A stretch of DNA of 64,000 bases. It comes from Acidobacteriota bacterium (GTDB taxonomy: Bacteria; Acidobacteriota; Terriglobia; Acidiferrales; UBA7541). Under the pieces are notes generated by a model, which searched no databases, had not been told where the DNA came from, and was given only the letters and a program-made list of their open reading frames with translations. The translations under genes were made by a program, and so were the position numbers. Below are positions 11,544 to 58,982 of the stretch, in pieces. The stretch is from positions 62,001 to 126,000 of the forward strand of contig JABCZN010000009.1 in the NCBI GenBank assembly GCA_013289665.1, read 5' to 3'. Within the stretch, counting starts at the first letter, position 1; every line of letters begins with the position of its first letter.

Positions 11544-11637
11544 AGAGCAAGTCCTCAGGTCACCATCCGCACGGCTGGCTGAAAATGCACAAAACCCCTG
11601 CGAATAACGCATTTCTCTCACATGCACCCCCGGGCAG

Positions 11638-11666: not shown

Positions 11667-11701
11667 GAGCACCTTCACACAAAGGACCGGCCACGGACTC
11701 A

Positions 11702-21336: not shown

Positions 21337-21347
21337 ACGGAAAAGTG

Positions 21348-24050
<2,703 letters not shown>

Positions 24051-27865: not shown

Positions 27866-28010
27866 GGCATCTCCAGAACCTTTTGCTTCCCTGCTTTGTA
27901 GCTCGGGCCTTCGGGCCTGCGGGTTTCCATTGCTGCGGCGCGGTCTTGCTTGCACTTTCTAAAGCCTCGCCCCTATGGGGACGGGCTATGGCCGCACCTG
28001 CGATGCTCTC

Positions 28011-30664: not shown

Positions 30665-31318
30665 ATGATTCCGCTGAAGGATATTAATCCGACCCGAACT
30701 TTTCCTTTTGTCAATGTGATGCTGATTTCGGCGAACGTGCTGGTGTTTTTCTATCAAATCACGTTGCCGCCTCACGCGGCCAAGGCGTTCCTGCTGGCCA
30801 ATGCCACTGTACCGGCGCGGTTGCCGGCGTTTCTGGCCGGGCATGCGCCGGCCAGCGTAGCGCTGTTTCCTTTATTCAGCAGCATGTTTCTGCATGGCGG
30901 ATTGATGCACCTGCTGGGGAATATGCTGTTCCTCTATATATTCGGGGACAACGTGGAGGACGCCTTCGGGCATATCGGGTATTTGTTCTTCTATCTATTG
31001 TGTGGGATTGGGTCGGGCTTGATTCATGTGCTGTTCAACTGGGGTTCGGGGATCCCGGCTTTGGGGGCTAGCGGGGCGATCAGCGGGGTAATGGGGGCGT
31101 ACGCGGTGATGTTCCCGAGGCACCAGATTTTGACGTTCTTTTTTATTTTTCTGATTCCGGTGCCGGCGATTTTGATTCTGGGGTACTGGTTTGTGTTGCA
31201 GTTTGTGGCGGGGATCAATGGATTGGGGATGGCGACGGCCGGGGGAGTGGCCTGGTGGGCGCATATCGGGGGTTTCTTGATGGGAGTGGTGATTGCATGG
31301 GCAACGAAGAAGAGGTAG
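30665..31318 (+). CDS. rhomboid family intramembrane serine protease
   Basis: A 217-residue polytopic protein with about six helices. The catalytic dyad is Ser in GASGAISG and His in WWAHIGGF. The family's HxxxxHxxxN segment is present as FLHGGLMHLLGNM. Rhomboids cleave membrane proteins within or near their transmembrane segments. The N-terminus (MIPLKDINPTRTFPFVN) is typical of the short bacterial subfamily. Substrate unknown; monocistronic. Confidence 0.93.
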   Translation: MIPLKDINPTRTFPFVNVMLISANVLVFFYQITLPPHAAKAFLLANATVPARLPAFLAGHAPASVALFPLFSSMFLHGGLMHLLGNMLFLYIFGDNVEDAFGHIGYLFFYLLCGIGSGLIHVLFNWGSGIPALGASGAISGVMGAYAVMFPRHQILTFFFIFLIPVPAILILGYWFVLQFVAGINGLGMATAGGVAWWAHIGGFLMGVVIAWATKKR

Positions 31319-31396
31319 GAGGAGAAAGGCAAGATTTAAGGGAGAGTTCGCAGCGGGGACCCAGAAGACCGAGAGTTTAAGCAACAGAGATCAGGG

Positions 31397-31413
31397 TTCA
31401 AGTGTTACTTGAA
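31397..31413. repeat. 17-base palindrome TTCAAGT-GTT-ACTTGAA at a stop codon
   Basis: A perfect inverted repeat covering the last codons and the stop (TGA) of the dehydrogenase gene read on the minus strand. Confidence 0.55.
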
Positions 31414-32498
31414 CGTTTGGAGATTTGGTTGAGGAGGTAGTCGGAGACTTCGCTTGTTGTTCTGGAGCCGCCGAGGTCGCGGGTGGTGATGTTGTCGTCG
31501 AGGGCGGATTTTACGGATTGTTTTAGTTGCTGAGCTTCGTCGTTCCAGCCCAGAAATTCCATCAACAAGCCAGCGGTTAGAACGGAGCCGAAGGGGTTGG
31601 CAATCCCCTTTCCGGCGATGTTGGGGGCAGAACCGTGGACCGGTTCAAAGAGCGAGGTGCGGCCGGGATGGATGTTGGCGGAGGGAGCGAGGCCGAGGCC
31701 ACCGGCGAGTTGCGCGGCAAGGTCGCTGATGATGTCGCCGAAGAGATTGTTGGTGACGATGACGTCGAACTGGCGGGGGTCGCGGACGAGTTCCATGGCG
31801 AGAGTGTCTATGTAGAGGTGGCGGGAGTCGATGTCGGGATATTCGGCGCGGACGGATTTGAAGACGCGCTGCCAGAGGTCACCGGCGTAGGTCATAGCGT
31901 TGGATTTGTCGGACATGCAGAGGCGCTTGAGCTTGTGGGCTTGGGCGTAGTCGAAGGCGTGGCGGATGATACGTTCGACGCCCTTGCGGGAGTTGACGTC
32001 TTCCTGGACGGCGATTTCGTCAGGGGTGTCTTTCTTGAAGAAACCGCCCATACCGACGTAGAGGCCTTCGGTGTTTTCGCGGAAGACGATCAGGCGGATG
32101 TCGTTGGTCGTGATGTCGCGGAGCGGGGTGTAGCGAGGGTGGAGGAGTTCTGTGGGGCGGGCGTTGACGAAGAGATCGAGCTGGAAACGGAGGCCGAGGA
32201 GGATGTCGGCGGCGTGCTGGTTGGATGGGACGCGAGGATCGCCTAGGGCCCCGAAAAGAATGGCGTCGAATTCATCGCGCAGGATTCGGACGGCGCCGGG
32301 GGGAAGAGTGATGTTTTCACGCAGGAATTTGTCGGCGCCCCAATCGAAGTGGACGAATTCGATGGGGCGATTGTGTTTCGTGGCGGCGGCCTGGATGGCT
32401 TTGACGGCGACGGGAGTGACTTCCATGCCGATGCCGTCACCGGGGATGACGGCGATGCGGGCGCAGGGACCGCCGTTGCGGAGGGGAATATTGGGCAC
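31398..32498 (-). CDS. isocitrate/isopropylmalate-family beta-decarboxylating dehydrogenase
   Basis: A 366-residue enzyme of the LeuB/Icd superfamily: IAVIPGDGIGMEV at the N-terminus, the RENTEGLYVGMGG loop, catalytic-site segment VTNNLFGDIISDLAAQLAGGLGLAPSANI and EPVHGSAPNIAGKGIANP near the NAD site. Most likely it is 3-isopropylmalate dehydrogenase (leucine biosynthesis) or a related 2-hydroxyacid enzyme such as tartrate dehydrogenase. No leucine genes are adjacent, so the specific reaction is left open. A separate NADP isocitrate dehydrogenase gene lies at 49.8 kb. Confidence 0.88.
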   Translation of the reverse strand: MPNIPLRNGGPCARIAVIPGDGIGMEVTPVAVKAIQAAATKHNRPIEFVHFDWGADKFLRENITLPPGAVRILRDEFDAILFGALGDPRVPSNQHAADILLGLRFQLDLFVNARPTELLHPRYTPLRDITTNDIRLIVFRENTEGLYVGMGGFFKKDTPDEIAVQEDVNSRKGVERIIRHAFDYAQAHKLKRLCMSDKSNAMTYAGDLWQRVFKSVRAEYPDIDSRHLYIDTLAMELVRDPRQFDVIVTNNLFGDIISDLAAQLAGGLGLAPSANIHPGRTSLFEPVHGSAPNIAGKGIANPFGSVLTAGLLMEFLGWNDEAQQLKQSVKSALDDNITTRDLGGSRTTSEVSDYLLNQISKRSSNT

Positions 32499-32693
32499 GT
32501 GTGTGGCTCCGATGGAATTTTGGGCGAAGGTTACGTTAGCACAGGTTGAGAAGCGTTATCAGTAATCGGTAATCAGTAACAGGCTAACGGATAGCAGCGA
32601 TCAGAGAACAGGAGGCTGGAAGGTGGAGCGATCAGGGGTGGATTGACTCCGGCGAGAGAGTTGATTAGGCTCGCGCTACCTGAGGAGGGGACC

Positions 32694-33020
32694 ATGAGAA
32701 AGTTCGCGATTCCCGGAATGTTGATCGCAGTGGCGATGTTGAGCGTTGGGATTTGGGCGGCGGCGCAGGACAAGCCGGAGGTTGTGGAAGTGACGGGGAT
32801 TCTGGTGAAGGTGTCGGCGGTTGGGACGGACACGACGGGATGGGAGATTCACCTTCCAAATGAAATGAACATTGGCGGAAAGATGACGAAGGCGGTCGAG
32901 GTGGACGGGGATCCGCACAAGTTTCAGAAGCTGGAGAATTTGCGGATCACGGTGAAGGGTTACTTGATGCGGCCGTCGGAGAATCGGATTGTGATCAAGG
33001 TGCAGAAGATTAAGGAGTGA
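32694..33020 (+). CDS. small exported protein of unknown function
   Basis: A 108-residue protein with a signal peptide (FAIPGMLIAVAMLSVGIWAAA) and a short beta-rich body (VVEVTGILVKVSA, NLRITVKGYL and RIVIKVQKIK), suggesting a small OB- or beta-sandwich fold. The ATG follows a strong GAGGAGGGG. I do not recognise the family. Downstream starts a block of dispersed repeats. Confidence 0.65.
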   Translation: MRKFAIPGMLIAVAMLSVGIWAAAQDKPEVVEVTGILVKVSAVGTDTTGWEIHLPNEMNIGGKMTKAVEVDGDPHKFQKLENLRITVKGYLMRPSENRIVIKVQKIKE

Positions 33021-33216
33021 GGGACCAAAGAGTGGGCCAGTGGCATGCGACCAGCGGCCAGTGAGGAGAGGAGATTTAACACAGAAGACACTCGGGAAGA
33101 GCACGGAGGGCGCGGAGAATAGACGCCCGAAAGGGCCGGGCGACCAGCGCCCGGCCGACCTGAATGTCAATTGTTCGCTTTTTTCATCGTGACGGCGCAT
33201 TCCGCGGAATCACCCT
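33021..33216. repeat. dispersed repeat block
   Basis: It contains a GGCCAGTGGCATGCGACCAG module (also near 43147 and 58245), a TTTAACACAGAAGACACTCGG tract of the 'CGCAGAG' family (33075-33115) and an inverted repeat CCGGGCGACCAGCGCCCGG near 33138. No gene. Confidence 0.6.
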
Positions 33217-34158
33217 TTAGCACGAGACGGGCGCGTTCGTGGGTCCGGGACGGCTTGAGGGAAGGTAATTGAAATGCGCCACACCTTCCTCATCAAGATA
33301 TGAAGTCCCGCTGTGGGCGTAGGGCTTCCCTTCCAGGGAGTCCATTTCTACATCGCGCACCAAAACAAAAATCCTTTCGTGGAGTTCGGGAGGAGCGGCC
33401 ACGTTAACGGTGATGGTGCCTAATGGCTCGGGGCGGAACCGAATTTCGGGGATGGTCAGGTTCTGCTTTTTGGCGAGCGAGATTTTTCCGTACTCTCCGA
33501 CGCCTCTTCCCTTCGGAGTCGGGTGATAGTCGATGGCAGTAACATAGTAGGTTCCTTCGGGAAGGAACCTGATTTGAAACGAGCCGTCAGGATGGACCTT
33601 CTGACGACCGGCGATCAAGTTCTGGCGATGGCCCTTTGCATTGACTTCCCAAACGGTCAGATAGGCATTCGGTGATTCTGGTGGGGTGAGACTCACAACC
33701 TTGCCTCGCAGCGTGGCTCCCTGCGAAGCGAGGCTGGGGTGCATCATCAAGCGGAATTTTTCGTCGAAGGGGATGAGATCATCTTCGGTTGGCGACTCTC
33801 CTCGGGCATAGCGAATATCCGCCCCAGCCTCTCCGGGAGAAATAGGCCGGCAGGATCCGATGAAGATTTTGCCGCTTTTGTCCTGGAAACCGTAAATGAA
33901 GAATATCATGCCGTTGTGCGGCTGACCAAAACCACAGTCGGAGTAGGCATACCGCTCTATGACCTCAATCGAATCGCTATCAAGGCCCTTGTAGGCTGCC
34001 GGCACCTTGAACATGATGATGACGTCTTCGCCTTCCGTTCTCGCGCTGGCCACTTCTCCTTCGAAAACAACCGCTGCCTCCGCATAAGCCAATGCCGCAT
34101 CTTCCCTCTGGTTATCGCCGCGCGGTAGGCACACGCAAGGGTTCGCGCGATCCGGCAA
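33217..34158 (-). CDS. secreted protein with carboxypeptidase-regulatory-like domain; 5' end unclear
   Basis: At least 313 residues. The N-terminal part (CVCLPRGDNQREDAALAYAEAAVVFEGEVAS) resembles secreted proteins with a tissue-inhibitor-like beta barrel. The C-terminal part (GATLRGKVVSLTP, then GSFQIRFLPEGTYYVTAIDY) resembles a carboxypeptidase-regulatory sandwich. Upstream of the listed TTG the same frame encodes a hydrophobic signal-like stretch (TVLALIACFGSTIIFLPD) but reaches a TAA without any ATG, GTG or TTG. The true start may be non-canonical or lost by mutation. Confidence 0.6.
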   Translation of the reverse strand: MPDRANPCVCLPRGDNQREDAALAYAEAAVVFEGEVASARTEGEDVIIMFKVPAAYKGLDSDSIEVIERYAYSDCGFGQPHNGMIFFIYGFQDKSGKIFIGSCRPISPGEAGADIRYARGESPTEDDLIPFDEKFRLMMHPSLASQGATLRGKVVSLTPPESPNAYLTVWEVNAKGHRQNLIAGRQKVHPDGSFQIRFLPEGTYYVTAIDYHPTPKGRGVGEYGKISLAKKQNLTIPEIRFRPEPLGTITVNVAAPPELHERIFVLVRDVEMDSLEGKPYAHSGTSYLDEEGVAHFNYLPSSRPGPTNAPVSC

Positions 34159-34303
34159 GAAGATGATGGTAGATCCGAAACAGGCGATCAGAGCAAGGAC
34201 TGTTTTCTGATGCGTGGTGGTGGCTTATCGTACCAGCGAGTTGTGATGACAGATTTGTTTTTCGCGTTGTTCAGCGGCCAAGACGGATGTCGCGAATTTG
34301 AGC

Positions 34304-35260
34304 TCAGGAGGAGCGGGCGGATTCGGTTAGGAAGAGGCCAAGAAGGGCTAGGGCGGCGCCGAAGAGTTCGGACCAGGAGCCACGTTCATTGAGAAAGAGG
34401 ATGCCGAGGATGGTGGCGGAGACGGGGAGGAGGTAGGAGAAGGCGCTGAGTTGGGAGGCTTCGAGGTAGCGGAGGAGCCAGAAGTAGAAGAGGTAGGCGA
34501 GAGTGGAGCTGAAGATGGCCGTGAAGGCGAGGCAGACCCAGGCGGTCCAGGGGATGGATTGCCAGTTGGAGAGAGGCCCGAGGGCGAAGGCTCGATTGAT
34601 GGCGATGGGAAGAATGATCAAGCCGCCGAAAAGATAGTTCCAGGTGGTCATGGTGAGGGCGTCGTAGTTCCCTGCCACGCGCTTGCCGAGGACGACATAG
34701 AGGGCGAAGGCGAGCGAGCCGCATAGGGTGATGAAGTCGCCCGTGAGCGTGGGCGAGTGGCGGGAGACGCCGCCGGAGCCGGAGGCGAGGATAGCCACGC
34801 CGATGAACGAGACGGCCATACCGAGGGCTTTGCCGAGGGTGAGTTTTTCGAGGCGGAAGAGGACGGCGAGGACGAGGGCGTAAATTGGCCCCATGCCGAG
34901 GATGAGAGAAGAGTGGGCGATGCTCGTGTAACGAAGACCTACCGTGAAGCACATCTGATTTAGACCGATACAGAAAAAACCGAGATACGCGAAGGTGAAG
35001 AGGTCGCGGAGCGTGCGCGGCTGCTTGTGGGCTCTGAGATCGGCGGAGAAGGCGGGGAGGCGCGCCGCGATTGGGTAGATGGCGAGCATGAAGAGGGAGG
35101 CGGCGACTACGCGGAATGAGGCGAGAGTAAGCGGCTGGAGATAGCGGAGAGCGAACTTGACGGCCAGATAGTTGACGGCCCAGATGGCCATGATGAGGGT
35201 GATAGAGGCGACGAGGATGGAGCGGGAGGGACGGTGGCCGTCGGAGGGTTCTATGCGCAC
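34304..35260 (-). CDS. EamA-family (DMT superfamily) transporter
   Basis: A 318-residue protein with ten predicted helices arranged as two EamA repeats. The first begins IMAIWAVNYLAVKFALRYLQPLTLASFRV and the second LAFALYVVLGKRVAGNYDALTMTTWNYLFGG, ending in LLPVSATILGILFLNERGSWSELFGAALALLGLFL. Such proteins export or import metabolites and amino acids. Substrate unknown. It is upstream, in the same direction, of the enolase-superfamily/GNAT pair. Confidence 0.9.
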   Translation of the reverse strand: MRIEPSDGHRPSRSILVASITLIMAIWAVNYLAVKFALRYLQPLTLASFRVVAASLFMLAIYPIAARLPAFSADLRAHKQPRTLRDLFTFAYLGFFCIGLNQMCFTVGLRYTSIAHSSLILGMGPIYALVLAVLFRLEKLTLGKALGMAVSFIGVAILASGSGGVSRHSPTLTGDFITLCGSLAFALYVVLGKRVAGNYDALTMTTWNYLFGGLIILPIAINRAFALGPLSNWQSIPWTAWVCLAFTAIFSSTLAYLFYFWLLRYLEASQLSAFSYLLPVSATILGILFLNERGSWSELFGAALALLGLFLTESARSS

Positions 35261-35576
35261 GGGCGTGGGCGGAGCGCGGACATTTTTTGGATTATATGCG
35301 AGAAAGAGAGACGGATGGATAGCAGATATGAGCGATCGCAGGAGGCGAAGAGCGCGGGTTCAATCTGTATCGGCAAGATCTTCGAGGCGAGTGTCGGGCA
35401 GATCCAGTCGAATGCGAAACTTCCGCTTAATAAAGCGGGTGGGCAAGCCGGACGTCGGTCCCACCGCAAAGATTTGCGTAATCGCGTTGGCGTTGAGTCT
35501 TGGCTTCATCGCGCCGGATGCGAGAGACGGGCTGAAACCACAGGCTGTAGTCGACGACAGGGCTGGGCAAAAAAAA
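35261..35576. other. gap with a dispersed repeat and a possible small frame
   Basis: Near 35318-35360 is a GATAGCAGATATGAGCGATCGCAGGAGGCGAAGAGCG repeat module shared in part with 36737-36775 and 59365-59378. Then a plus-strand frame starting MRNFRLIKR has one hydrophobic segment (CVIALALSLGFIAPD), but it runs on into the antisense of the next gene, so I do not call it. Confidence 0.35.
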
Positions 35577-36683
35577 TCAGGTGAGATGGAGTTTGCGGGT
35601 GGTCAGGGTGTCGATGCGTTTCAGGTTGGGGAGGAAGCCTATGCCGGGGGCGGTGGGGACGGTTATGGTGCCTTCGGGACTTACAGTTACTTCGGGGGTG
35701 ATGATGTCCTGGTGCCAGTAGCGGGCGCTGGCGGAGACGTCGCCGGGGAGCGAGAAGTTGGATTGGGTGGACATGGCGATGTTGTGGGCTCGGCCGACGC
35801 CGGATTCGAGCATGCCGCCGCACCAGACGGGGAGGGAATTTTTGGCGCAGAGATCGTGGATGCGTTTGGCCTGCAGGTGGCCGCCGACGCGTCCGAGCTT
35901 GACGTTGATGATTTTGCAGGCGCCGAGGGAGATGGCGGCTTCGGCTTGTTCATAGGTGTGGATGCACTCATCGAGGCAGACAGGGGTTTGCAGGTTTTTC
36001 TGGATGGCGACGTGGCCAAACAGGTCGTCCCAGCCAAGAGGCTGCTCGATCATCATTAGGTAGAAGGCGTCGAGCTGCTGGAGGAGATGGAGATCGTCCG
36101 CGCGATAGGCGGAGTTGGCGTCAACGGAAAGCTTGATGCGGGGGTAGAGATTGCGAATGTGCTGGACGGGGACGAGGTCCTTGCCGGGCTTGATTTTCAG
36201 CTTGATGCGCTGGTAGCCGGAGTCGAGTTCTTTTTTTACGGCGGCGGTGAGTTCTTCGACGGTTTCCTTTATGCCGATGGAGACACCGCAGGGGATTTCT
36301 TCGCGCGTGCCGCCAAGCAATTTCCAGAGAGGAAGATTTTTTACTTTGGCTTCGGCGTCCCACGCGGCGGTTTCGAGCGTGGCCTTGGCCATGGTGTGAC
36401 CGCGGACCTGTTCGAGGAGTGGCCAGATGTCGGAGGCGGAGTCGATGCTCTTCCCTTTCAGCATGGGCCAGAGATAGGTGGTGATGATGTGCCAGCAGGT
36501 CTGGGTGTCTTCAGGAGAGTAGAAGGGATTTTCGCCGGCCGTGCATTCACCCCAGCCGAAGGCGGAATCGAGATTGAGTTCGGCGAGGAGGATGCGGCGT
36601 TCGGTGACGCGGTCCATGCTCGTTTCGAAGGGAGTGAGGAGTTTCAGGTGGATTTCGCGGAGGGTGAGGGAGCGGATTTGCAT
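35577..36683 (-). CDS. menC: enolase-superfamily enzyme (o-succinylbenzoate synthase / N-succinylamino acid racemase type)
   Basis: A 368-residue protein of the muconate-lactonizing subgroup. Active-site lysines are in RIKLKIKPG and VKLGRVGG. The metal ligands are Asp (SVDANSAY), Glu (IEQPLGWDD) and Asp/Glu (CLDECIH). MenC makes o-succinylbenzoate in menaquinone synthesis, and close homologues racemise N-acyl amino acids. No other men gene is present. The neighbouring GNAT gene, read in the same direction, is the usual partner of the racemase form, so amino-acid racemisation is at least as likely as menaquinone synthesis. ATG 36683 is set by homology. Confidence 0.85.
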   Translation of the reverse strand: MQIRSLTLREIHLKLLTPFETSMDRVTERRILLAELNLDSAFGWGECTAGENPFYSPEDTQTCWHIITTYLWPMLKGKSIDSASDIWPLLEQVRGHTMAKATLETAAWDAEAKVKNLPLWKLLGGTREEIPCGVSIGIKETVEELTAAVKKELDSGYQRIKLKIKPGKDLVPVQHIRNLYPRIKLSVDANSAYRADDLHLLQQLDAFYLMMIEQPLGWDDLFGHVAIQKNLQTPVCLDECIHTYEQAEAAISLGACKIINVKLGRVGGHLQAKRIHDLCAKNSLPVWCGGMLESGVGRAHNIAMSTQSNFSLPGDVSASARYWHQDIITPEVTVSPEGTITVPTAPGIGFLPNLKRIDTLTTRKLHLT

Positions 36684-37007
36684 TAGGGAATTATTATGAC
36701 GCAATTCGTGAGGGTGGAGGAGCCTGAATTAGGGGATAACAGACAGCAGCGATCCGATAGCAGGAGGCGAAGAGAAGAGAGAACTTAACGTCCGACCAGA
36801 CCGGGGTAAACGCCGGACGCTCAGATCGGACAGAGGGGGCGCGGAGAAAAGTATTCCAACAACACAGCGAGCGATCGCTCGGCCACAAGGACGGAACGTC
36901 AGATTTCGCGAGTAGTCGAACTGGGTTCACTGATTTCGAGATTGGTTGGAGCGGGGAACGGGGCTAATGGCGCAAAAGCGGAAGCTGCGCTTCCGCACTC
37001 AAAAGGG
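36684..37007. repeat. dispersed repeat block
   Basis: GATAACAGACAGCAGCGATCC and GATAGCAGGAGGCGAAG modules (about 36737-36775), a CTTAACGTCCGACCAGACC tract that recurs near 47708, and a half paired-hairpin unit GCAAAAGCGGAAGCTGCGCTTCCGC (about 36972-36996). No gene. Confidence 0.55.
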
Positions 37008-37839: not shown

Positions 37840-38868
37840 TCATTTTGCGGAGGCCCTGGGGAGTTCGCGCTGCTTGGACTCGTTCCAGAGGGATTCGAGT
37901 TGGGGGCGGGGGATATCGGAGAGGGTGGTTCCCTGCTCGCGGGCGATTTCCTCCATTTCTCGGAAGCGGCGGATAAATTTGGCGCTGGCCTTGTGCAGGG
38001 CGATTTCGGGGTCGACGTTGAGGAAGCGGGAGAGATTTACGGCGACGAAGAGGATGTCGCCAAGCTCGGATTCGATACGGTCGGGAGATTCTTTTTTCTG
38101 GAGTACTTCCCGAAGTTCGGTGGATTCTTCGCGGAGCTTGTCGAAGATGCCTTCGACGTTGTCCCAGTCAAAGCCAATGCGAGCGGCTTTGCGGGTTAGT
38201 TGGAAGGCTTCGAGTAGGGCAGGGATGGTGCGGGGGACGCCGTCCAGCAAGGATGCGGAATCGGAAGTTGAGGACATAGAGGAAGTGCGGGAGGTCAAGG
38301 ATTCAGAGTCGGAAGAAGACCGGAGGGCGTGCCGTGCAGAAGCCAAAGCTGGCTCTGCATTCAAAGAGGGGCGGGCGAACCCGGCCCCCACAAAGTTGTT
38401 CGGAGATTTCGATTGGCGCTCTTGTTTTTTCAGGAGTTCCCAGTTGCGGAGGACTTCGGCGGAGGTTTTGGCGTTGGCGGTGCCGAAGACATGGGGGTGG
38501 CGGCGAATCATTTTGTCGTGGATTTCGCGGATTACGTCGTTGATGGTGAAGCGGCGGTCTTCTGCGGCGATTTGGGCATGGAAGAGGACCTGGAGAAGGA
38601 GGTCGCCCAGTTCTTCGGCGAACTTGGAGTCGTCGCGGGAATCGAGGGCGTCGAGGACTTCGTAGGCTTCTTCGACGAGATAGGTGCGAAGGGTGGAGTG
38701 GGTTTGCTCGCGGTCCCAGGGGCAGCCGCCAGGGGCGCGGAGACGGGCCATTACGGCGGCTAGTTGGGCGAAGGCGGGACCGGGATCTTGCGGGCGTGGG
38801 GATTTTTTGGCGTGGCGTGGTCTGGGCCTTGATTTTTTGCGGGGGCGAGAGAGTTTTTTCGGAGGCAT
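37840..38868 (-). CDS. mazG: MazG-family nucleoside triphosphate pyrophosphohydrolase with an internal insertion
   Basis: A 342-residue protein. Two MazG halves are present: residues 45-152 (LRAPGGCPWDREQTHSTLRTYLVEEAYEVLDAL, then EELGDLLLQVLFHAQIA) and 207-320 (SLLDGVPRTIPALLEAFQLTRKAARIGFDWD, then ELGDILFVAVNLSRFL). Between them lies an in-frame stretch of about 55 residues (GAGFARPSLNAEPALASARHAL and a Ser-rich run), where the family normally has a short linker. The inserted DNA contains modules of the intergenic repeats. ATG 38868 is preceded by AGGA; the N-terminal 30 residues are Arg/Lys/Pro-rich. It probably hydrolyses aberrant NTPs. Confidence 0.9.
   Translation of the reverse strand: MPPKKLSRPRKKSRPRPRHAKKSPRPQDPGPAFAQLAAVMARLRAPGGCPWDREQTHSTLRTYLVEEAYEVLDALDSRDDSKFAEELGDLLLQVLFHAQIAAEDRRFTINDVIREIHDKMIRRHPHVFGTANAKTSAEVLRNWELLKKQERQSKSPNNFVGAGFARPSLNAEPALASARHALRSSSDSESLTSRTSSMSSTSDSASLLDGVPRTIPALLEAFQLTRKAARIGFDWDNVEGIFDKLREESTELREVLQKKESPDRIESELGDILFVAVNLSRFLNVDPEIALHKASAKFIRRFREMEEIAREQGTTLSDIPRPQLESLWNESKQRELPRASAK
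38248..38412. repeat. repeat-derived insertion inside mazG
   Basis: It includes GGGGCGGGCGAACCCGGCCC, the hairpin unit of the intergenic family at 53702-53735, and GCAGAAGCCAAAGCTGGCTCTGC, an inverted repeat. Length is a multiple of three, so the frame is kept. Confidence 0.6.
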
Positions 38869-39651: not shown

Positions 39652-40102
39652 ACAGCAAACAGCCGATCGTAATCAGTAATCAGTAAGAGCATACGGATTA
39701 TTGACCGTGGTTTGATTTAGGTTGAGATCCCTGACGCGTCCCTGTCGGATGCGTTTGAGGATGACCAGTTTTGGGTAGGGATCCCGGGTGCTGCTTGGCG
39801 GCACTTGGGATTTTTTGTTTTTGGGAGAGAAAAAGAAAGAGTTTACACACCCAGAGGGAACACCGGGGCGCCAGAGAGAGCACAGAGTTGAGAAATCGGA
39901 AGAAGAGATTTGGAGAGGTGGGATCGTCAGAACCCGCCTTTCCTCCCCCGCGGCGGGCAAAGGCCGGGGCACCCTCGAGTTCATTTTGGATTTGATGGTT
40001 GATCGAGAACCCGACAGGGCGGAGCAAGTTCCGCCCCTACAATGGACGGTGGGGGTATGGGACAATTGCGCTGTGGCGAATGCGAAAATCAGTAGCGACC
40101 GT
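39652..40102. repeat. 451-base gap filled with dispersed repeats
   Basis: AATCAGTAATCAGTAA (39670-39685), a CCCAGAGGGAACACC and AGAGAGCACAGAGTTGAG tract (39848-39895) and a GGGCGGAGCAAGTTCCGCCC hairpin (about 40017-40036). A frame continues through it into the next gene but has no homology and repeat composition. Confidence 0.55.
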
Positions 40103-41998
40103 ATGCGGGTGACGGTGCTGGGGTCGGGGACGTCGATGGGCGTGCCTACCCTGGGGTGTCATTGCGTGGTGTGCGAGTCGGCCGATGCGCATGATAAAAG
40201 GTTGCGGCCTTCGTTGCTGCTTTCGCGGGGCGAGCAGAATGTGGTGATTGATACTACGCCGGATTTCCGGACGCAGGCTTTGCGGGCGGGGATTGACCGG
40301 CTGGATGCGGTTTTGCTTACGCATGGGCATGCGGATCATATTCTGGGATTTGATGATTTGCGGCCGTACAACTTCAAGCAGCGGGCGGCCATGCCGGTGT
40401 ATGGGAACGAAGAGACGTTTCGGATTCTGCGGCGGGCGTTTGCCTACGTGTTTGACGACAAGCCGACGTTGAGCAGCATTCCTAGCGTGAAATTGCATGT
40501 GGTGAAGGAGCCGTTTGAATTGATGGGTGTGCGGTTTGTGCCCGTGCCGCTGGTGCATGGGGAGATGGAAGTGCTCGGATATAGATTTGGGCGGGCGGCG
40601 TATTTGACGGATTTCAGCCGATTGCCGGATTCGAGCGCGGCGCTGCTCGAGGGATTGGATGATTTGATTCTGGATGCGCTGCGGGATGTGCCGCATCCGA
40701 TGCATATGACGGTGGAGCAGTCGCTGGCGTTGATTGACCGGTTGAAACCGAAGCGGGCCTGGTTCACGCATATTGCGCATGATTTGGCGCATGCGGCAAC
40801 GAATGAGCGGTTGCGGAAGGCGGGGTACCCGCAGGTGCAGTTGGCTTATGACGGGTTGACGTTTGAGGTGCGGACGGAGGCGCGGGGGGTGGGGGTGCGG
40901 CCGGCGGGTGGGTTGCGGGTGTTTACTTCGGGGGAGGCGTGGGCGGAGACATTTGGAGAAGAAAATGAAGAAAAAACAAGAGGGGAAACCAAGGGTGCGG
41001 CACCCACAGAAAATAGTACCCCAAGAGCACAGCCAGGAATGGCTGTGCCACAAGAAGCAGGGCGAGGCCGCGGTAGTGTGATTGCGATTGGGAATTTTGA
41101 CGGGATCCATTTGGGGCATCAGAGGGTGTTGGAGTTTTCTATTGGGCTGGCGAAGCAGAGCAGGGCGGTGGCTACGGCGCTGACGTTTGAGCCGCCACCG
41201 CTGAAGGTGTTGCGACCGGAGGCGGCGCCACCGCGGATTTCGACGAACGAGCAGAGAGTGGAATGGTTTGGGGCGCTGGGGATGGAGGCGGCGGTGGTGT
41301 TGCCGTTCACGATGGAGCTGGCGAAGTTGTCGCCGGAGGATTTTGTTGACGAGATTTTAGTGGCGCAATTGCAGGTGCGCGCAGTGGTGGTGGGAGATAA
41401 TTTTAGATTCGGGCACAAGCAGGCGGGGAGCGTGAAGCTCTTGCGGGAGTTGGGAATGCGGGATGGATTTGATGTGATCGTGCACGAGCCGGTGGTGGTG
41501 GATGGGGAGATTGTGTCGAGCACGGTGATCCGGAAACTGATTGCGGAGGGCGAAGTTACGCGGGCGGCGCGGATGCTGGGGCGAGCGTTTGCGTTGACGG
41601 GCGAAGTGGTGGCGGGGACGGGGACGGGGCGGAAATTTACGTTTCCGACGCTGAATTTGCGGCCGGAGCAGGAGTTGCTGCCGGCTCGGGGCGTTTACAT
41701 TACCCGGACGGTGCTGGAGGGGGAACCGAACAGTCACCGAAGCGTGACGAATGTGGGGATGCGGCCGACGTTCAATGGAACGGGGCTGACGGTGGAGACG
41801 CATTTGCTGGATTATTCGGGGAATTTTTCACCGAAGAGGATTGAAGTGCGGTTCTGGAAGAAATTGCGGGAGGAGAAGAAGTTTGGCGGGGTGGAGGAGT
41901 TGAAGGCCCAGATCGCGAAGGATATTGCGCGGGCGAATGGATTTTTCTCGAAGTTGAGGAAGGTGCGGGGGAAGAGGTTGGCGGGGATGAGGGAATAA
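40103..41998 (+). CDS. ribF: fusion: metallo-beta-lactamase-fold hydrolase (PhnP-like) + RibF riboflavin kinase/FMN adenylyltransferase
   Basis: A 631-codon frame. Residues 1-265 are a metallo-beta-lactamase-fold hydrolase of the PhnP type (VLGSGTSMGVPTLGCHCVVC, THGHADHILGFDD, LTDFSRLP, WFTHIAHD). Residues about 275-631 are bifunctional RibF, making FMN and FAD: nucleotidyltransferase IAIGNFDGIHLGHQRV, ISSTVIR-type signature IVSSTVIRKLI, and kinase domain GRKFTFPTLNL and SVTNVGMRPTFNG. The RibF N-terminus (GLRVFTSGEAWAETFG) is separated from GNFDG by an in-frame stretch of repeat DNA. No stop lies between the halves, so it is a true fusion unless an internal GTG or TTG start is used. Confidence 0.85.
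   Translation: MRVTVLGSGTSMGVPTLGCHCVVCESADAHDKRLRPSLLLSRGEQNVVIDTTPDFRTQALRAGIDRLDAVLLTHGHADHILGFDDLRPYNFKQRAAMPVYGNEETFRILRRAFAYVFDDKPTLSSIPSVKLHVVKEPFELMGVRFVPVPLVHGEMEVLGYRFGRAAYLTDFSRLPDSSAALLEGLDDLILDALRDVPHPMHMTVEQSLALIDRLKPKRAWFTHIAHDLAHAATNERLRKAGYPQVQLAYDGLTFEVRTEARGVGVRPAGGLRVFTSGEAWAETFGEENEEKTRGETKGAAPTENSTPRAQPGMAVPQEAGRGRGSVIAIGNFDGIHLGHQRVLEFSIGLAKQSRAVATALTFEPPPLKVLRPEAAPPRISTNEQRVEWFGALGMEAAVVLPFTMELAKLSPEDFVDEILVAQLQVRAVVVGDNFRFGHKQAGSVKLLRELGMRDGFDVIVHEPVVVDGEIVSSTVIRKLIAEGEVTRAARMLGRAFALTGEVVAGTGTGRKFTFPTLNLRPEQELLPARGVYITRTVLEGEPNSHRSVTNVGMRPTFNGTGLTVETHLLDYSGNFSPKRIEVRFWKKLREEKKFGGVEELKAQIAKDIARANGFFSKLRKVRGKRLAGMRE
40985..41065. repeat. repeat-derived insertion inside the ribF part
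   Basis: AGGGTGCGGCACCC (about 40992-41005) is followed by a 37-base unit at 41016-41052 that is identical to intergenic bases 44495-44531. The unit contains the inverted repeat CAGCCAGGAATGGCTG and recurs with small changes at 53748-53783. Confidence 0.75.
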
Positions 41999-42052
41999 AT
42001 ACGGAAGAATCGACGAGCGGCCGGGTTGAAGGCGAGGTTGAGGTTGAATCCA

Positions 42053-42087
42053 AACCCGCACCATGAAAACCGCAGGGTGCGGCACCC
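42053..42087. repeat. GGGTGCGGCACCC-type hairpin, intergenic copy
   Basis: AACCCGCACC, a short spacer and GCAGGGTGCGGCACCC form an imperfect hairpin. The same family occurs at 55127-55157 and 57126-57163, and inside the coding regions of cobA and sulfite reductase. Confidence 0.65.
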
Positions 42088-42098
42088 GAGGCGATTCA

Positions 42099-44596: not shown

Positions 44597-46474
44597 ATGG
44601 ACAACAAACAGATTGCACGGATTTTGCGGGAGACCGCGTCACTTTTGCAGATTGACGGGGCGATCATCGGGCGCTACCGGAGTTATGAGAAGGCGGCGGA
44701 ACTGATTGACAGCTTGCCGGAGTCGGTGGAGCAGTTGGTGGCTACACCGGAGAAGTTGACGGAGTTGCCGGGGATTGGCGACCGGATGGTGGAGCATCTG
44801 CAGGAGATCGTCGAGAGCGGCGATTACTCGCTGCGGAAGAAATTGCTGAAGAAATATCCGGAGACGATTCTGGATTTGCTGAATCTGCAATCGCTGGGGC
44901 CGAAGAAGGTGGCTTTTTTGTGGAGCAAGTTCAAGGCGGGCAGCGTGGCGGACGTGGAGAAACTGGCGAAGGAAGGCAAGCTGCGGGATTTGCCGGGATT
45001 TGGAGAGAAGAGCGAGCAGAATATTTTGAAGGCGGTGGAGGTGTTCAAGAAGTCGTCGGGAAGATTTTTGATCAGCCGGGGAGAAGAGGCGGCGATTGCG
45101 ATTTCGGCGCACATCGGGAAGGCGGGGAAAGGCGTGGAGAGCGTGACACCGGCGGGCTCGCTGAGGCGAGGCAAGGAGACCGTGGGAGATCTGGATTTAC
45201 TGGTGACCCTGGCGCCGGGGCATACGAAGCAGAAGGAAGTGGATGCGCTTGCGGCGCACATTTTGAAGTTTCCGGGGATTGACCAGACGCTGGCGCACGG
45301 CGAGAACAAGGTTAGTTTCACGCTGCAGGATGGGCTGCAGGTGGATGTGCGTTTACTGGAGAAGGAGAATTTTGGGGCGGCGCTGCTTTATTTTACGGGG
45401 TCGAAAGAACACAACGTGGCTTTGCGCGGGCGCGCGAACGACATGGGGTTTACGTTGAACGAGTATGAATTGGCGATGTTGGGAGAAGGCGAAGAAGGAA
45501 AAGGCAAACCCAAGAGCGGGCCGGGCCCTTCGGACAGATTGAAGGCAGGCAAGCCCGGCCCCTTGAAAGGAGAGGAGGAGGCGAAGAAAGGGCGGCGGGT
45601 GGCGGGGCGGACGGAGGAGGAGATTTACGCGAAGTTGAAGATGGAGTATGTGCCGCCGGAATTGCGGGAGAACACGGGGGAGATTGCGGTGGCGGAAAAC
45701 TACAAGCTGCCGAAATTGATTGAGCTGCGGGATCTGAAGGGCGACCTGCAGATGCATACGACGGCCAGTGACGGGAAGAATTCGATTGAGGAGATGGCGG
45801 AGGCAGCGCGGGCGCTGGGGCACGACTACATCGCGATCACGGACCACTCGAAAGCGGTGACGGTGGCGAATGGGTTGGATGAAAAGCGGATGGCGGCGCA
45901 TATCAAGAATTTGCGGGCAGCGGACGAGAAGGGGCTGGGAATCCGGGTGCTGGCGGGGTCGGAAGTGGATATTTTGAAGGACGGGTCGCTGGATTATCCA
46001 GATGAGATTCTGGCGCAATTGGATGTGGTGGTGTGCTCGATCCATTCCTATTTCAATCTGGAGCAGGCGGCGATGACCGAGCGGATGCTGGCGGCGATCG
46101 AGAATCCGTACACGCAAATTATCGCGCACCCGACGGGGCGGCTGCTGTTGCGGCGGGATCCGATTGATTACGACATGGAGAAGGTGCTGGGCGCATGCGC
46201 GAAGCACGGGGTGGCGATGGAGTGCAATTCCTATCCCGACCGGTTGGATCTGAAGGATGTGTATCTGAGGATGTGCAAGGAGCGCGGAGTGAAGGTGGTA
46301 ATTTCGACGGACTCGCATAATACGGGGAATTTATCGTTGATACGGTACGGGGTGGTAATGGGGCGGCGGGGGTGGTTGGAGAAGAAGGATGTGATTAATA
46401 CGTTGCCGACGAAGGAGTTTTTGGAGGAGTTGCGGGAGAAGCCGGGGAGTAAGAGGAAGGCGGCCAAGAAGTAG
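44597..46474 (+). CDS. polX: PolX-family DNA polymerase/3'-5' exonuclease (Pol beta-like + PHP)
   Basis: A 625-residue protein. The N-terminal helix-hairpin-helix part (LPGIGDRMVEHLQEIV and LPGFGEKSEQNIL) is followed by the nucleotidyltransferase centre (AGSLRRGKETVGDLDLLVT, VDVRLL) and a C-terminal PHP nuclease domain from about residue 380 (DLQMHTTASDG, YIAITDHSKA, STDSHNTG). It acts in gap-filling repair. Between the two domains (about residues 303-330) there is an in-frame stretch KSGPGPSDRLKAGKPGPLKG encoded by a copy of an intergenic hairpin repeat. Confidence 0.93.
   Translation: MDNKQIARILRETASLLQIDGAIIGRYRSYEKAAELIDSLPESVEQLVATPEKLTELPGIGDRMVEHLQEIVESGDYSLRKKLLKKYPETILDLLNLQSLGPKKVAFLWSKFKAGSVADVEKLAKEGKLRDLPGFGEKSEQNILKAVEVFKKSSGRFLISRGEEAAIAISAHIGKAGKGVESVTPAGSLRRGKETVGDLDLLVTLAPGHTKQKEVDALAAHILKFPGIDQTLAHGENKVSFTLQDGLQVDVRLLEKENFGAALLYFTGSKEHNVALRGRANDMGFTLNEYELAMLGEGEEGKGKPKSGPGPSDRLKAGKPGPLKGEEEAKKGRRVAGRTEEEIYAKLKMEYVPPELRENTGEIAVAENYKLPKLIELRDLKGDLQMHTTASDGKNSIEEMAEAARALGHDYIAITDHSKAVTVANGLDEKRMAAHIKNLRAADEKGLGIRVLAGSEVDILKDGSLDYPDEILAQLDVVVCSIHSYFNLEQAAMTERMLAAIENPYTQIIAHPTGRLLLRRDPIDYDMEKVLGACAKHGVAMECNSYPDRLDLKDVYLRMCKERGVKVVISTDSHNTGNLSLIRYGVVMGRRGWLEKKDVINTLPTKEFLEELREKPGSKRKAAKK
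45505..45572. repeat. repeat-derived insertion inside polX
   Basis: AAACCCAAGAGCGGGCCGGG and GGCAAGCCCGGCCCC match the intergenic unit at 53702-53738 (AAACCCAAGAGCGGGCCGGG, then AGCCCGGCCCCTACA). The insertion keeps the reading frame and lies in the interdomain linker. Confidence 0.65.
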
Positions 46475-53460: not shown

Positions 53461-53816
53461 GGGGCAGGGAGAGAACGGATAAAGAGAGAAAAAGATAACG
53501 CAGCGACGCTGAGAGCGCAGAGTTTCGCAGAGGAGAGTCGGAGGGGCACGCCCGATAACGTGCCCCTCTTTTTTTGTAGCGCCGCGTTTTTTCTGAGCGG
53601 CCTACAAAAAGGAAGAAAACATAAGAGCCAATCTGAAGATGGGCCACTACAGAAGAAGAACCCAAGAGGGCGGGTAAAGCCGCCCCTACGTCAGCGAAGA
53701 GAAACCCAAGAGCGGGCCGGGCGAGCCCGGCCCCTACAAGAGCGCGAGGACCCCAGGAGCGCAGCCAGGAATGGCTGTGCCACAAGAGGCGAAGAGCGCT
53801 GACATAAAAGTCAGCG
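53461..53816. repeat. terminator and dense repeat block
   Basis: After a CAGCGACGCTGAGAGCGCAGAG tract and the terminator at 53541 come several hairpin units in series: GGGCGGGTAAAGCCGCCCC (about 53670-53690), AAACCCAAGAGCGGGCCGGG and AGCCCGGCCCCTACA (53702-53738), and GGAGCGCAGCCAGGAATGGCTGTGCCACA (53755-53783). The second and third match insertions inside polX and ribF. Confidence 0.65.
53541..53575 (+). terminator. intrinsic terminator
   Basis: Perfect ten-base stem GAGGGGCACG/CGTGCCCCTC (53541-53550 and 53559-53568) with a run of T. Confidence 0.85.
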
Positions 53817-54902: not shown

Positions 54903-55163
54903 GGTTTAGTTCCCTTCTGGTTTTGAAAATCGGATAACAGATAACAGTGAGCAGCGATCAGGAAGCGGTTGGTTGCTGAGTTTGTCGGCGTTGGTGCGCG
55001 AACAGCACCGCCGGGTTTCGTTTCGGTTGAGGTCCTTCGGCCATCCTTGTCGGATGGCCTCAGGCACTTTCAAACCTCTGGAGCACCCGGCTGGGCCACC
55101 TGAAGGTGACCGCTACACGGGGCGGAAAACCCCACCCTGAAAACAGCAGGGTGCGGCCCCCGC
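54903..55163. repeat. dispersed repeat block
   Basis: GGATAACAGATAACAGTGAGCAGCGATCAGG (54941-54971), a TTGAGGTCCTTCGGCCATCC and GGATGGCCTCAGG hairpin (55027-55065) nearly identical to that at 43308, CCACCTGAAGGTGACCGC (about 55097-55114) and a GGGTGCGG-family hairpin (55127-55157). Confidence 0.6.
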
Positions 55164-55406: not shown

Positions 55407-56303
55407 TTAGGAGATGCGGACATTGGGGAGACCTCCTTCGACGGCGTCGTGGAAAAAGTCGTGGGTGCTTGCGGCATCGGACAGGGTGGCGCAGGCGTTG
55501 GCGGAGGCGGCTACTCGGCCTATTAGGAGTAGGGCGGGCGCGGGGAGCGGAGCGAGTTGATTGAGGCCAGCTACCGTTGTGGCTTGTTGCGATTGATCGG
55601 GGTGGGAGGCTCTGGAGATTACTAGAACGGGTGTCGCGGGGGAGACGGCGGCGTCCTGGAGCCAGCGGGAGGCTTCGGCATAATTGGGGCCGGGCATGTA
55701 GACGACTACCGTGGTGTCGGCGGTTAGGCCGATGCCGGGGAGGAACTTTGATTCGGGGGCGCGGGAGAAGGTGGTGAAGAGGACGTGGGAGGATAGGCGA
55801 CGATCGGTAAGGGAGACTTTTGCGGCTGCGGCTGCGCTGAAAGCGGCGGAGATGCCGGGGACTACTTCGAAATTGATTTTGGCTTCGCGGAGGGCTTGGA
55901 TTTCTTCGGCGGCGCGGCCGAACAGGAGGGGGTCGCCTCCTTTGAGGCGGACTACGATTTTGTGCTTTGCGGCGTTGGCGAGGAGGAGCGAGTTGATGTC
56001 TTGCTGGATCAGGAGGCGGAAGCCGGCTCGTTTGCCTACGTCGATTCGTTCGGCGGTGGGGGGGATTAGATTCAGGATTTCGGGGCCGATGAGGGAGTCG
56101 TGGAGAACTACGTCGGCGGATTGGAGGATGCGGAGGGCTTTGATTGTGAGGAGTTCGGGATCGCCGGGGCCGGCACCGATTAGGAAAACTTTGGAAGAAA
56201 AGTGGTGGCCAGCGGATGAGTCGGAGGAAGAAAAGTCAAAACCCGCACCCTGAAAATCAGAGGGTGCGGCACCTAGGGTTTTAGAATGGATGGGCTTGGA
56301 CAT
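55407..56303 (-). CDS. cobA: uroporphyrinogen-III C-methyltransferase with repeat-derived N-terminus
   Basis: A 298-residue SAM-dependent enzyme that makes precorrin-2, the precursor of siroheme. From residue 38 the family begins (KVFLIGAGPGDPELLTIKALRILQSADVVLHDSLIG), with VVRLKGGDPLLFGRAAEEI and VVPGISAAFSAAA. Residues about 8-37 (GAAPSDFQGAGFDFSSS region) are absent from the family and come from an in-frame copy of an intergenic repeat. Its start overlaps the stop of the precorrin-2 dehydrogenase gene (ATGA). Siroheme is the cofactor of the reductase upstream. Confidence 0.92.
   Translation of the reverse strand: MSKPIHSKTLGAAPSDFQGAGFDFSSSDSSAGHHFSSKVFLIGAGPGDPELLTIKALRILQSADVVLHDSLIGPEILNLIPPTAERIDVGKRAGFRLLIQQDINSLLLANAAKHKIVVRLKGGDPLLFGRAAEEIQALREAKINFEVVPGISAAFSAAAAAKVSLTDRRLSSHVLFTTFSRAPESKFLPGIGLTADTTVVVYMPGPNYAEASRWLQDAAVSPATPVLVISRASHPDQSQQATTVAGLNQLAPLPAPALLLIGRVAASANACATLSDAASTHDFFHDAVEGGLPNVRIS
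56224..56278. repeat. GGGTGCGGCACC-family repeat inside cobA
   Basis: 55 bases, 49 of them identical to 58276-58330 inside the sulfite reductase gene and read in the same frame. The core is a hairpin (CCGCACCCT and AGGGTGCGG). Intergenic relatives at 42053, 55127 and 57126. Confidence 0.85.
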
Positions 56304-56920
56304 CAGGCGGCTCCTTCGGAGTTGTCTGTAGAGGTGGCTTGTTTGAGGAAGCGTTCGAACATGGGCTTACTGGCCAGGATATGGAGACAATGCTTGGTGG
56401 CTTCGGGATCCTGAGATTGGGCGCGGAGGGCTTCGCGGGCGGCGCCTAGCCACGCAAGCCAGGATTCGTATTCGGGGCCGAATTGGTCTTCAAGTTCTTT
56501 GCGGAGGCGCTGGGCCAACGCGGGGCTTTTGCCGTTGGTGGAGATGGCGATTTGAAGATCGCCGCGCTGGACGATCGAACCGTAGTAGAAGTGGCAGTGG
56601 TCGATGTCGTCTACGGCGTTGCAGAGGATGGAGCGTCGGTCGGCTTCATTGTAGACGGCTGCGTTCAGGTCTCGGATCGAGGTGGCGGCGATTACGAGGA
56701 AGGCGCCGCAGAGATCGTTGGGTTCGAAGGGCTTGGGGGACCAGGTGATTTGTTGGTTGCGGACCCATTCGGCCAGTTGGGGGGCGAGTTTGGGGGAGAC
56801 TACGTGGACCTGGGCGCCGGCTTCGAGCAGGCCGGGAATTTTTTGGGCGGCGATCGAGCCGCCACCGACCACGAGGACTCGGCGGGAGTGAAGTTTCAGG
56901 AAAGCGGGGAAGAGGGACAT
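56303..56920 (-). CDS. precorrin-2 dehydrogenase / siroheme ferrochelatase (CysG N-terminal type)
   Basis: A 205-residue protein. Residues 1-110 form an NAD-binding fold (FLKLHSRRVLVVGGGSIAAQKIPGLLEAGA), followed by VDDIDHCHFYYGSIVQRGDLQIAISTNGKSPALAQRLRKELE, the signature of the Met8p/CysG dimerisation domain. It oxidises precorrin-2 and may insert iron to give siroheme. It is coupled by overlap to cobA, and the reductase gene is 262 bases upstream. Confidence 0.93.
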   Translation of the reverse strand: MSLFPAFLKLHSRRVLVVGGGSIAAQKIPGLLEAGAQVHVVSPKLAPQLAEWVRNQQITWSPKPFEPNDLCGAFLVIAATSIRDLNAAVYNEADRRSILCNAVDDIDHCHFYYGSIVQRGDLQIAISTNGKSPALAQRLRKELEDQFGPEYESWLAWLGAAREALRAQSQDPEATKHCLHILASKPMFERFLKQATSTDNSEGAA

Positions 56921-57182
56921 TAGGCGGGTCTCCAGGAGAGATTGAGAGAAGAAAGAAAAAATCTAACGCCGAGACGCACCGGGCGCAGAGAATGCGCCGA
57001 GGACAGCAAGAGCCCATCCTTCCCAAAAAGCGCAAAGGGCAAGCAACCGAGCGCAAGAGCAGAACAACCCGGGAGCCCCAGGAGCGGCTGTGCCACGGGA
57101 GATGGCGTTCGGGAAGCTAGGATAGAAAAACCCGCACCCCGAGAAAGGCAGGGTGCGGCACCCACGATTTTTTCTCTGATCG
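56921..57182. repeat. repeat block between sulfite reductase and precorrin-2 dehydrogenase
   Basis: AATCTAACGCCGAGACGCACC tract (56962-56983), AGAGCCCATCCTTCCC, AGCCCCAGGAGCGGCTGTGCCAC and a GGGTGCGGCACCC-family hairpin (57126-57163). The operon probably reads through. Confidence 0.55.
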
Positions 57183-58982
57183 TCATGGACGGTCCTCGAT
57201 GGAGTGAGGGACGCGATGGGCGGGGACGTCGCGGACGGCGAATTCGGTTTGGGCGGCGGGTTGGCCGGAGAGGATGGCGCGGAGGCTTTCTGTGGAGTGG
57301 CGTGCCAGGAATTTTTGCAGCGGCTCGCCCTGATGGCGATGGGCGTGGAAGTCGGCCAGGAGGCGCGTGATGGCGTTGGGGACTTCGTCGGCGAGGCAGC
57401 GGTAGCCTACAGGGCGGGCGATGGCGGCGAATTGGCCTACGCTGCCGCCTAGGCAGAAGTAGTAGGCGTCGATCATCTTTCCGTCTTGCTTGATTTTTTT
57501 GCCTTCAATGCCGATGTCGGCGATCCAGTGCTGGCCGCAGGAGTTGGGGCAGCCGGTGATGTGGAGCTTGAGGTCTTCCTGGTAGCCGGGGAAACGCTCT
57601 TCGAGCTGCTCGGTCAACCAGCGGGCGTAGGATTTGGTTTCGGTGAGAGCGAGTTTGCAAAATTCGGAGCCGGTGCAGGCTACCGTGCCGCGGACGAAGG
57701 CGTTGGTTTCCACCGGGAGGCCGTTGGCAACGAGTTCCTGGACGACAGAGTTGACGCGGGATTCGGAAATGTTGATTAGGAGAAGATTCTGCATGAGCGT
57801 GGCGCGGAGATGGCCGTCGCCATGATGTTCGGCCAGATCCGCGGCTAGGCGGATTTGTGCGGGAGTGATGCGTCCGCGGATTACGCTGGCGCCAATGCTG
57901 AAGAGGCCGGGCTGCTTTTGCGGGATGACGCCCAGGTGGTCGCGATGGATGGAGGCGGGGAGTTGTTCGGGAGCGGAGGGATCGAGTTTGTAGCCTAGCT
58001 TAGATTCGATGGCGGCTAAGAAGGAGTCCGCGGTCCATCCGTGTTGGAGGAAAAGGAATTTCAAGCGGGCCTTTTCGCGGGATTGGCGGAGGACTTCGCT
58101 TTCACGGAAGACTTCGGCGATGGCGCGGGCTACGGGGAGGACTTGTTCCCAGCGGATGAAGGCGTTTAGTCTTGCGGCGAGATGGGGTTCGGTGGAGAGG
58201 CCACCTGCGATGCGGACGGAGAAGCCGACGCCGGAGGGGTGGTGGTCAGGGGCCGGCGACCCGTGACCCGAGGAAGAGGAAGAAAAGTCAAAACCCGCAC
58301 CCTCAAAACCGGAGGGTACGGCACCCACGGATTTTCTGAGAGTGGCGGTGAAGGAGATGTCGTTGATTTCGGGGTAGGAGCACCAGTCGGGGCAGGCGGT
58401 TATGGTGATTTTGAATTTGCGCGGGAGATTGTAGAAGTCGGGATTGCCACCGAGTTCCTTATCCAAGGCAAGAGTTAGCGAGGAGACGTCGGCTAGTTCG
58501 TGGGAATGGATTCCCGCCAGGGGGCAGCCGGTTATGTTGCGGGTTACGTCGCCGCAGGCGCCGGTGGTGCGGAGGCCTACCGACCAGAGGCGTTCGAGAA
58601 GTTCCGGGAGATTTTCGACGCGGATCCAATGGAGCTGAACGTTTTGGCGGACGGTGATGTCGGCTACGCCGTTGCCGAACTGGTCTGAGAGATCGGCGAT
58701 GGCGCGGGCTTGTTCGCTGGTGAGGAGACCGTTGGGGATGCGAATGCGGACCATGAAGTAAGGGACGGCTTTGCCTTCACCGTTTTTGCCGCCGATTACG
58801 CCAACGCCGTCACCTTGGGTGTAAATGCCCCAGGGCCGGAAGTAGGTCCCCAGCCATTCGGGGGGAATGGAGTCGAAACCCTGGCGGGCGAATTGTCGGA
58901 TTTCGTCGAGGTGGTCCCACGGATTTTTGGCGCGTTTCAGGCGCTCGACGCGCTGGGCTTTGGTTTCTTTTAAGTCGGGCAT
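57183..58982 (-). CDS. siroheme-dependent ferredoxin-type sulfite/nitrite reductase with internal insertion
   Basis: A 599-residue protein with two ferredoxin-like and two siroheme-binding halves. The 4Fe-4S/siroheme cysteines are in VACTGSEFCKLALTETK and ITGCPNSCGQHW. N-terminal TVRQNVQLHWI and TGACGDVTRNITGCPLAG are typical. The family includes NirA/Sir enzymes, and sulfite versus nitrite cannot be settled by motifs; siroheme genes and a cysteine-rich leader peptide favour sulfite. Residues about 216-250 (VGAVPSGFEGAGFDFSSS, then a Ser/Gly/Pro/His run) interrupt a region that is normally continuous (ITACPDWCSYPEINDISF, then GVGFSVRIAGGLS). Confidence 0.92.
   Translation of the reverse strand: MPDLKETKAQRVERLKRAKNPWDHLDEIRQFARQGFDSIPPEWLGTYFRPWGIYTQGDGVGVIGGKNGEGKAVPYFMVRIRIPNGLLTSEQARAIADLSDQFGNGVADITVRQNVQLHWIRVENLPELLERLWSVGLRTTGACGDVTRNITGCPLAGIHSHELADVSSLTLALDKELGGNPDFYNLPRKFKITITACPDWCSYPEINDISFTATLRKSVGAVPSGFEGAGFDFSSSSSGHGSPAPDHHPSGVGFSVRIAGGLSTEPHLAARLNAFIRWEQVLPVARAIAEVFRESEVLRQSREKARLKFLFLQHGWTADSFLAAIESKLGYKLDPSAPEQLPASIHRDHLGVIPQKQPGLFSIGASVIRGRITPAQIRLAADLAEHHGDGHLRATLMQNLLLINISESRVNSVVQELVANGLPVETNAFVRGTVACTGSEFCKLALTETKSYARWLTEQLEERFPGYQEDLKLHITGCPNSCGQHWIADIGIEGKKIKQDGKMIDAYYFCLGGSVGQFAAIARPVGYRCLADEVPNAITRLLADFHAHRHQGEPLQKFLARHSTESLRAILSGQPAAQTEFAVRDVPAHRVPHSIEDRP
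58233..58337. repeat. repeat-derived insertion inside the sulfite reductase gene
   Basis: It contains the GGGTGCGG-family unit (58276-58330) and a CAGGGGCCGGCGACCCGTGACCC stretch related to the GGCCAGCGACCAGTGACCCG module at 43154. Net length is a multiple of three. Confidence 0.75.

Follow-up and report, generated by a model that had tools for sequence, protein, structure and literature searches.

The 55-base repeat that two adjacent genes of this soil acidobacterium carry in frame is very likely a REP element, a hairpin of 37 nt that would once have been spread by RAYT transposases and whose copies persisted in coding loops that tolerate them. The element is assigned to a RAYT system because hairpins with the same tag and the same geometry bracket RAYT genes in congeneric species, and because the genome itself retains a RAYT fossil.

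Two copies in cobA and a sulfite/nitrite reductase gene

Both copies are located on the minus strand of the window, the whole stretch of 64,000 nt that was analyzed. The first (56224–56278; REP core 56238–56275; R1 55.9 bits) lies in cobA (55407–56303, minus strand), which encodes a uroporphyrinogen-III C-methyltransferase of 298 aa (PRK06136, 1.7e-75). The second (58276–58330; REP core 58290–58327; R1 62.1 bits) lies in the gene of a ferredoxin-type sulfite/nitrite reductase of 599 aa (57183–58982, minus strand). The sequence-only reading had located both copies correctly, with identity at 49 of 55 positions, and their common codon phase is confirmed: counted from the ATG, the offsets are 25 in cobA and 652 in the reductase gene, which is phase 1 in each. 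They are read on the sense strand as GAxPSxFxGAGF. The intergenic relatives placed earlier near 42053, 55127 and 57126 were recovered as GGGTGC-type REPs on the minus strand at 42051–42088 (61.2 bits), 55125–55162 (downstream of cobA; 53.4 bits) and 57127–57164 (between cysG and the reductase gene; 56.5 bits). The repeat core thus has five matches in the window, against none in 100 dinucleotide-preserving shuffles. The 55-base match extends beyond the mobile core, of about 37 nt, into a subfamily flank, GAAAAGTC, which a third copy, located in the leucyl-tRNA synthetase (LeuRS) gene, also has.

The cobA copy is indeed N-terminal: the ATG of cobA overlaps the cysG stop codon (ATGA), and the element sits before the methyltransferase domain. 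Given this overlap, and since a reading of the 5' part of cobA found no ATG, GTG or TTG between the element and the domain, the sequence indicates that translation very probably includes the copy, barring an unusual start. Most cobA homologues start directly at the domain, and the cobA of the sister species G020 has an N-terminal extension of its own.

The reductase copy had been proposed to split a conserved region, and a family alignment bears this out. About 35 extra residues near amino acids 219–249 are absent from 79 of the 80 aligned homologues (the 79 being Acidobacteria, Rokubacteria and Methylomirabilota records) and from the solved structure of NirA (1zj8); no distant homologue with the same residues was found in this set. 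At this site the nearest relative (locus L011 of G020) contains another insert, about 90 residues long, which includes a GTAG-type hairpin, GGTAGCGCCGGCTTCCAGCCGGC, and nine further reductases of the genus with a readable site are all empty. In an AlphaFold model of the reductase (mean pLDDT 77.7, pTM 0.80), the insert at residues 219–249 falls between the strands 209–216 and 251–258, with a pLDDT below 50 that partly reflects too few aligned sequences there. The model places the insert at a hairpin turn, that is, in a loop. That the two genes belong to one pathway, a point stressed by the sequence-only reading, looks incidental, because LeuRS and miaB carry copies too.

Hairpin architecture and copies in other genes

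Ten strong matches genome-wide define the element as a hairpin that consists of the tag GGGTGC and a 9-bp stem enclosing a 7-nt loop (9/7/9), with a tail that is T-rich or reads TCTTGG. The exact tag with this geometry, scanned for with at least 7 of 9 stem pairs, occurs at 17 places in 2.29 Mb and at none in shuffled sequence; other stem and loop sizes were not clearly above the shuffled level. By both scan and folding, the element is a short (20–40 nt) hairpin with a conserved 5' tag, which is the architecture of a REP. Stems vary among families, and tag and geometry are constant; counts of covarying stem pairs carry little weight and are partly circular, as the elements were chosen by pairing. 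The copies are dispersed and, outside LeuRS, mostly intergenic, with ten strong matches against the more than 100 copies usual for REPs. The GGGTGC family lacks the canonical GTAG or GTGG tetranucleotide at the foot of the hairpin, and a second family has GTGG. One further match (C1:82156), with a poor tag, looks like chance and was rejected.

The scan of genes covered the same 2.29 Mb, about 51% of the assembly, for which a simple gene caller returned 1781 genes. Intergenic sequences gave 160 matches in 49 coding sequences, against 3 matches in 3 coding sequences with reversed queries. Many of the matches that have one intergenic partner resemble pseudogenes or paralogues in decay and were rejected as REPs. 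The clear in-frame cases of the GGGTGC type are LeuRS, miaB, cobA and the reductase, and LeuRS contains five such copies at four places, plus one GTGG-type copy. IscS, mazG, ArgS, trmJ and a polX-like gene have repeat matches inside and are candidates by sequence match. In mazG (window positions 37840–38751), extra residues between two domains match an intergenic repeat (NFVGAGFARPS); trmJ (1362–2141) and the polX-like gene (44597–46474) have the repeat-like inserts GGRGSKGGKGSKGKE and GKPGPLKGEEEAKKG.

The second, GTGG-tagged family is read in scpB and in a fused open reading frame on the plus strand that joins an MBL-fold hydrolase to RibF (39788–41998; L119:1788–3998). The REP, GCACAGCCAGGAATGGCTGTGC, is located at 41015–41058 (plus strand) and overlaps the linker, at about residues 402–424; judging from its sequence, the frame may represent two genes fused across a repeat. 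Another GTGG-type copy, of repeat family D4, lies at 53747–53790 (plus strand). The window holds further repeats: a palindromic family, AATGTCGGCGCGCCGACATT with a TACTTGAAGGTTT tail, at 24238, 26702, 28936 and 30381; a GCGGCAGCTTCGCTGC repeat family at 21304–37007; and two similar stretches of about 200 bases at 9165–9375 and 11594–11803, one of which covers the start of the predicted gene C9:73701–74763.

These counts bear on whether the inserts could be ordinary fast-evolving or low-complexity loops that match by chance, or products of local recombination between genes. The inserts do occupy variable loops, and cobA and the reductase gene are near neighbours that share a longer match than other copies. 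Yet shuffled sequence yields no match and reversed queries yield 3 against 160, distant copies are present in LeuRS and miaB, different REP stems occupy one site across species, and the DNA-level matches to intergenic copies contradict such an origin, which is scarcely credible. Duplication between neighbours as the sole cause was rejected, as distant copies exist.

RAYT genes and the identity of the element

The Pfam profile Y1_Tnp (PF01797) has matches in 29 of the 36 genomes of the genus and none in the 77%-complete genome studied here, in which a full RAYT query also found no intact RAYT. The full query, and not the Pfam profile, did detect a RAYT fossil (L314; G000:C7:208072–208212), comprising the last 47 aa at 64% identity (E 1.7e-14) and containing a stop; no flanking hairpin was seen at this locus. 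The fossil has the appearance of a decayed gene of which the C-terminal part alone is left.

A comparison of 20 transposase loci of congeners reveals that several RAYT-like genes (for example in L297, L298, L302 and L306) are bracketed, in inverted orientation, by hairpins that share this tag and geometry. Under one counting rule, the RAYT loci contain 16 GGGTGC 9/7/9 hairpins in 65.5 kb and other loci contain 6 in 341 kb. By locus, 9 of 20 compare with 4 of 85 (Fisher p 2.6e-5), so that the flanking of RAYT genes, a mark of REPs, is found in congeners. Several of the 6 control-locus hairpins are copies inside LeuRS, and roughly one in two of the RAYT loci examined lacks a GGGTGC hairpin within about 1.5 kb. 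A GTGG-type hairpin, the type found in the MBL-RibF linker, flanks the RAYT-like gene in L304. The RAYT-like gene of G035 in L296 (278 aa) has repeated QGLKPLPP-type segments at its C-terminus, perhaps translated REPs.

The repeat might instead be a selfish element of its own kind, MITE- or RPE-like, moved by a DDE or other transposase and unrelated to RAYTs. A 77%-complete genome without an intact RAYT, a tag that is neither GTAG nor GTGG, and a palindrome that occurs in coding sequence as RPEs do would all agree with this. Such an element is improbable, however, in view of the congener RAYT genes bracketed by the same tag, stem and loop lengths in inverted orientation; terminal inverted repeats or target duplications are also not evident by eye in the printed inserts. 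The element resembles the RAYT/TnpA_REP systems (Quentin et al. 2018, PMC6006769) in being a 5'-tagged hairpin placed, in inverted orientation, next to the gene of a Y1 transposase. In those systems, GT[AG]G is the canonical tag for most RAYT subclasses, and some subclasses have atypical structures. Here, by contrast, the tag is not GT[AG]G and no intact transposase was found in the host assembly; along with the ten strong copies and the use of a draft assembly alone, these points count against the REP reading. The atypical tag lowers the case for a canonical REP, not that for the RAYT association.

Under the REP reading, the element would be a single-strand hairpin that owed its past spread to RAYT (Y1, HUH-type) transposases, and the spreading RAYTs would still exist in congeneric species. 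We infer that RAYTs like those of the congeners carried out the transposition. Some copies would have landed in coding sequence, and those alone would have persisted whose net insert was in frame and free of stops. The survivors would lie in surface loops, linkers or termini able to accommodate a flexible Gly/Ala/Pro/Ser/Lys-rich segment, where they are presumably translated and nearly neutral for the protein, and such tolerant places would then have been entered again in other species.

Recurrent insertion, reading frames and known systems

The usual lengths between anchors in LeuRS (29 congeneric sequences) are 3, 8, 16 and 28 residues at the four places, against 45, 34, 53 and 47 in the species studied here (G000). 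Places 1 to 3 are also long in the LeuRS of the sister species G020, with different letters, and G002, which is outside the G000/G020 clade, has a REP of its own at place 2. Place 2 thus contains three different REP stems in three species (G000, G020 and G002). At place 4, the LeuRS of G035 has a GGGTGC-type REP followed by a GTGG-type REP. The middle of miaB contains about 55 extra residues that are absent from congeners where the region is resolved. Overall, the inserts vary in sequence and length between sister species, and most congeners lack them. The miaB of G035 (L228) has about 100 extra N-terminal residues ahead of its MiaB domain, made up of several repeat-like segments (AGLKPGTYR, and NRSVCAT in two copies).

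The GGGTGC-type copies in LeuRS are read in one frame in all five own copies and in all five from four congeners (10/10, five species). This frame is antisense to the tag and results in Gly/Ala/Pro-rich linkers such as TQAPGAKPAPGAP and SQDPPSHIEGGAP. The GTGG-type copies scanned (LeuRS of two species, scpB and MBL-RibF) likewise share one frame in 4 of 4 cases, with AQxxxxVPQ-like peptides. The same frame in both genes, as the sequence-only reading had it, holds for cobA and the reductase, but the miaB copy is read in another frame and the LeuRS copies on the other strand. The search in about 51% of the assembly yielded further in-frame genes, in frames that are not uniform: at least three are in use overall, and a fixed frame for all copies was rejected on these three. 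The frames in use encode small, flexible residues, and the other frames Cys, Trp and Arg. No p-value is attached to the frame excess, as copies within one gene are not fully independent. We infer that selective filtering caused the frame bias; it may also arise because the transposase favours particular strands or targets.

Repeated entry of the same loops, and the single frame in the ten LeuRS copies and in the four scanned GTGG-type copies, could be taken as signs of functional inserts, arising by targeted insertion or as peptides selected for regulation, RNA structure or protein interaction. This is very improbable: sister species have inserts unlike each other in sequence and length, most congeners have none, and the inserts are predicted to be disordered; tolerance for Gly/Pro/Ala-rich peptides accounts for the frame bias as well as function does. 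A broader form of the REP reading, somewhat doubtful and offered tentatively, is that the REPs of the genus are a steady supplier of translated linkers, entering a few tolerant loops almost always in one frame. Gly/Ala/Pro/Ser/Lys peptides would then lengthen loops and bridge neighbouring genes, as in the MBL-RibF fused frame, owing to a target or strand preference of the transposase or to strong selective filtering of frames.

The likeness to Rickettsia palindromic elements (RPEs) noted earlier stands insofar as the repeat is palindromic, lies in frame in coding sequence and comes from an unrelated phylum, the closest records being Acidobacteria MAGs. It is neither the sole nor the first case outside Rickettsia, because intragenic REPs were reported in several phyla by Di Nocera et al. 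2013 (PMC3733652). RPEs are in-frame translated palindromic repeats of about 150 bp in unrelated conserved genes (PMC10969869). In-frame insertion in conserved genes is shared, whereas the core measures 37 nt here and the longest shared copy 55 nt; compared by description rather than by sequence, the present element also differs in its RAYT association, its several frames and its use of both strands. Its behaviour is like that of a Rickettsia element, but a REP is the better reading.

PMC3733652 describes intragenic GTAG/CGTC REPs in several species, tRNA synthetase genes among their hosts, with more than one insert in a gene. It also describes different REPs at approximately the same recB site in two Xanthomonas species, and equates the repeats that lie within R. 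conorii genes with RPE-4 and RPE-6. Relative to that account, the present copies are likewise short tagged palindromes in conserved genes, including tRNA synthetases, with several per gene; they differ in the GGGTGC tag and the GTGG family, in the phylum Acidobacteriota, and in the recurrence of insertions at given places, followed through a genus of about 36 species. It also reports acidobacterial TIRYT (Y1 transposase) genes with flanking repeats in Koribacter and others, which share the phylum, Y1 genes with flanking repeats and one genome-repeated family; these are compared by description rather than by TIR sequence, and the passages on them mention no intragenic copies. The phenomenon is therefore not new as such, intragenic REPs having been described in other phyla in 2013; what is added is the non-canonical tag, the phylum, the genus-wide filled and empty sites and the frame excess. 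No report of this acidobacterial case was found in the part of the literature that was searched.

A free-living lineage can, on this evidence, gain protein sequence again and again from "extragenic" palindromes. The genus-wide series of filled and empty sites, in LeuRS and other essential enzymes, constitutes a natural experiment on loop tolerance, on the frames that survive and on target choice by RAYTs.
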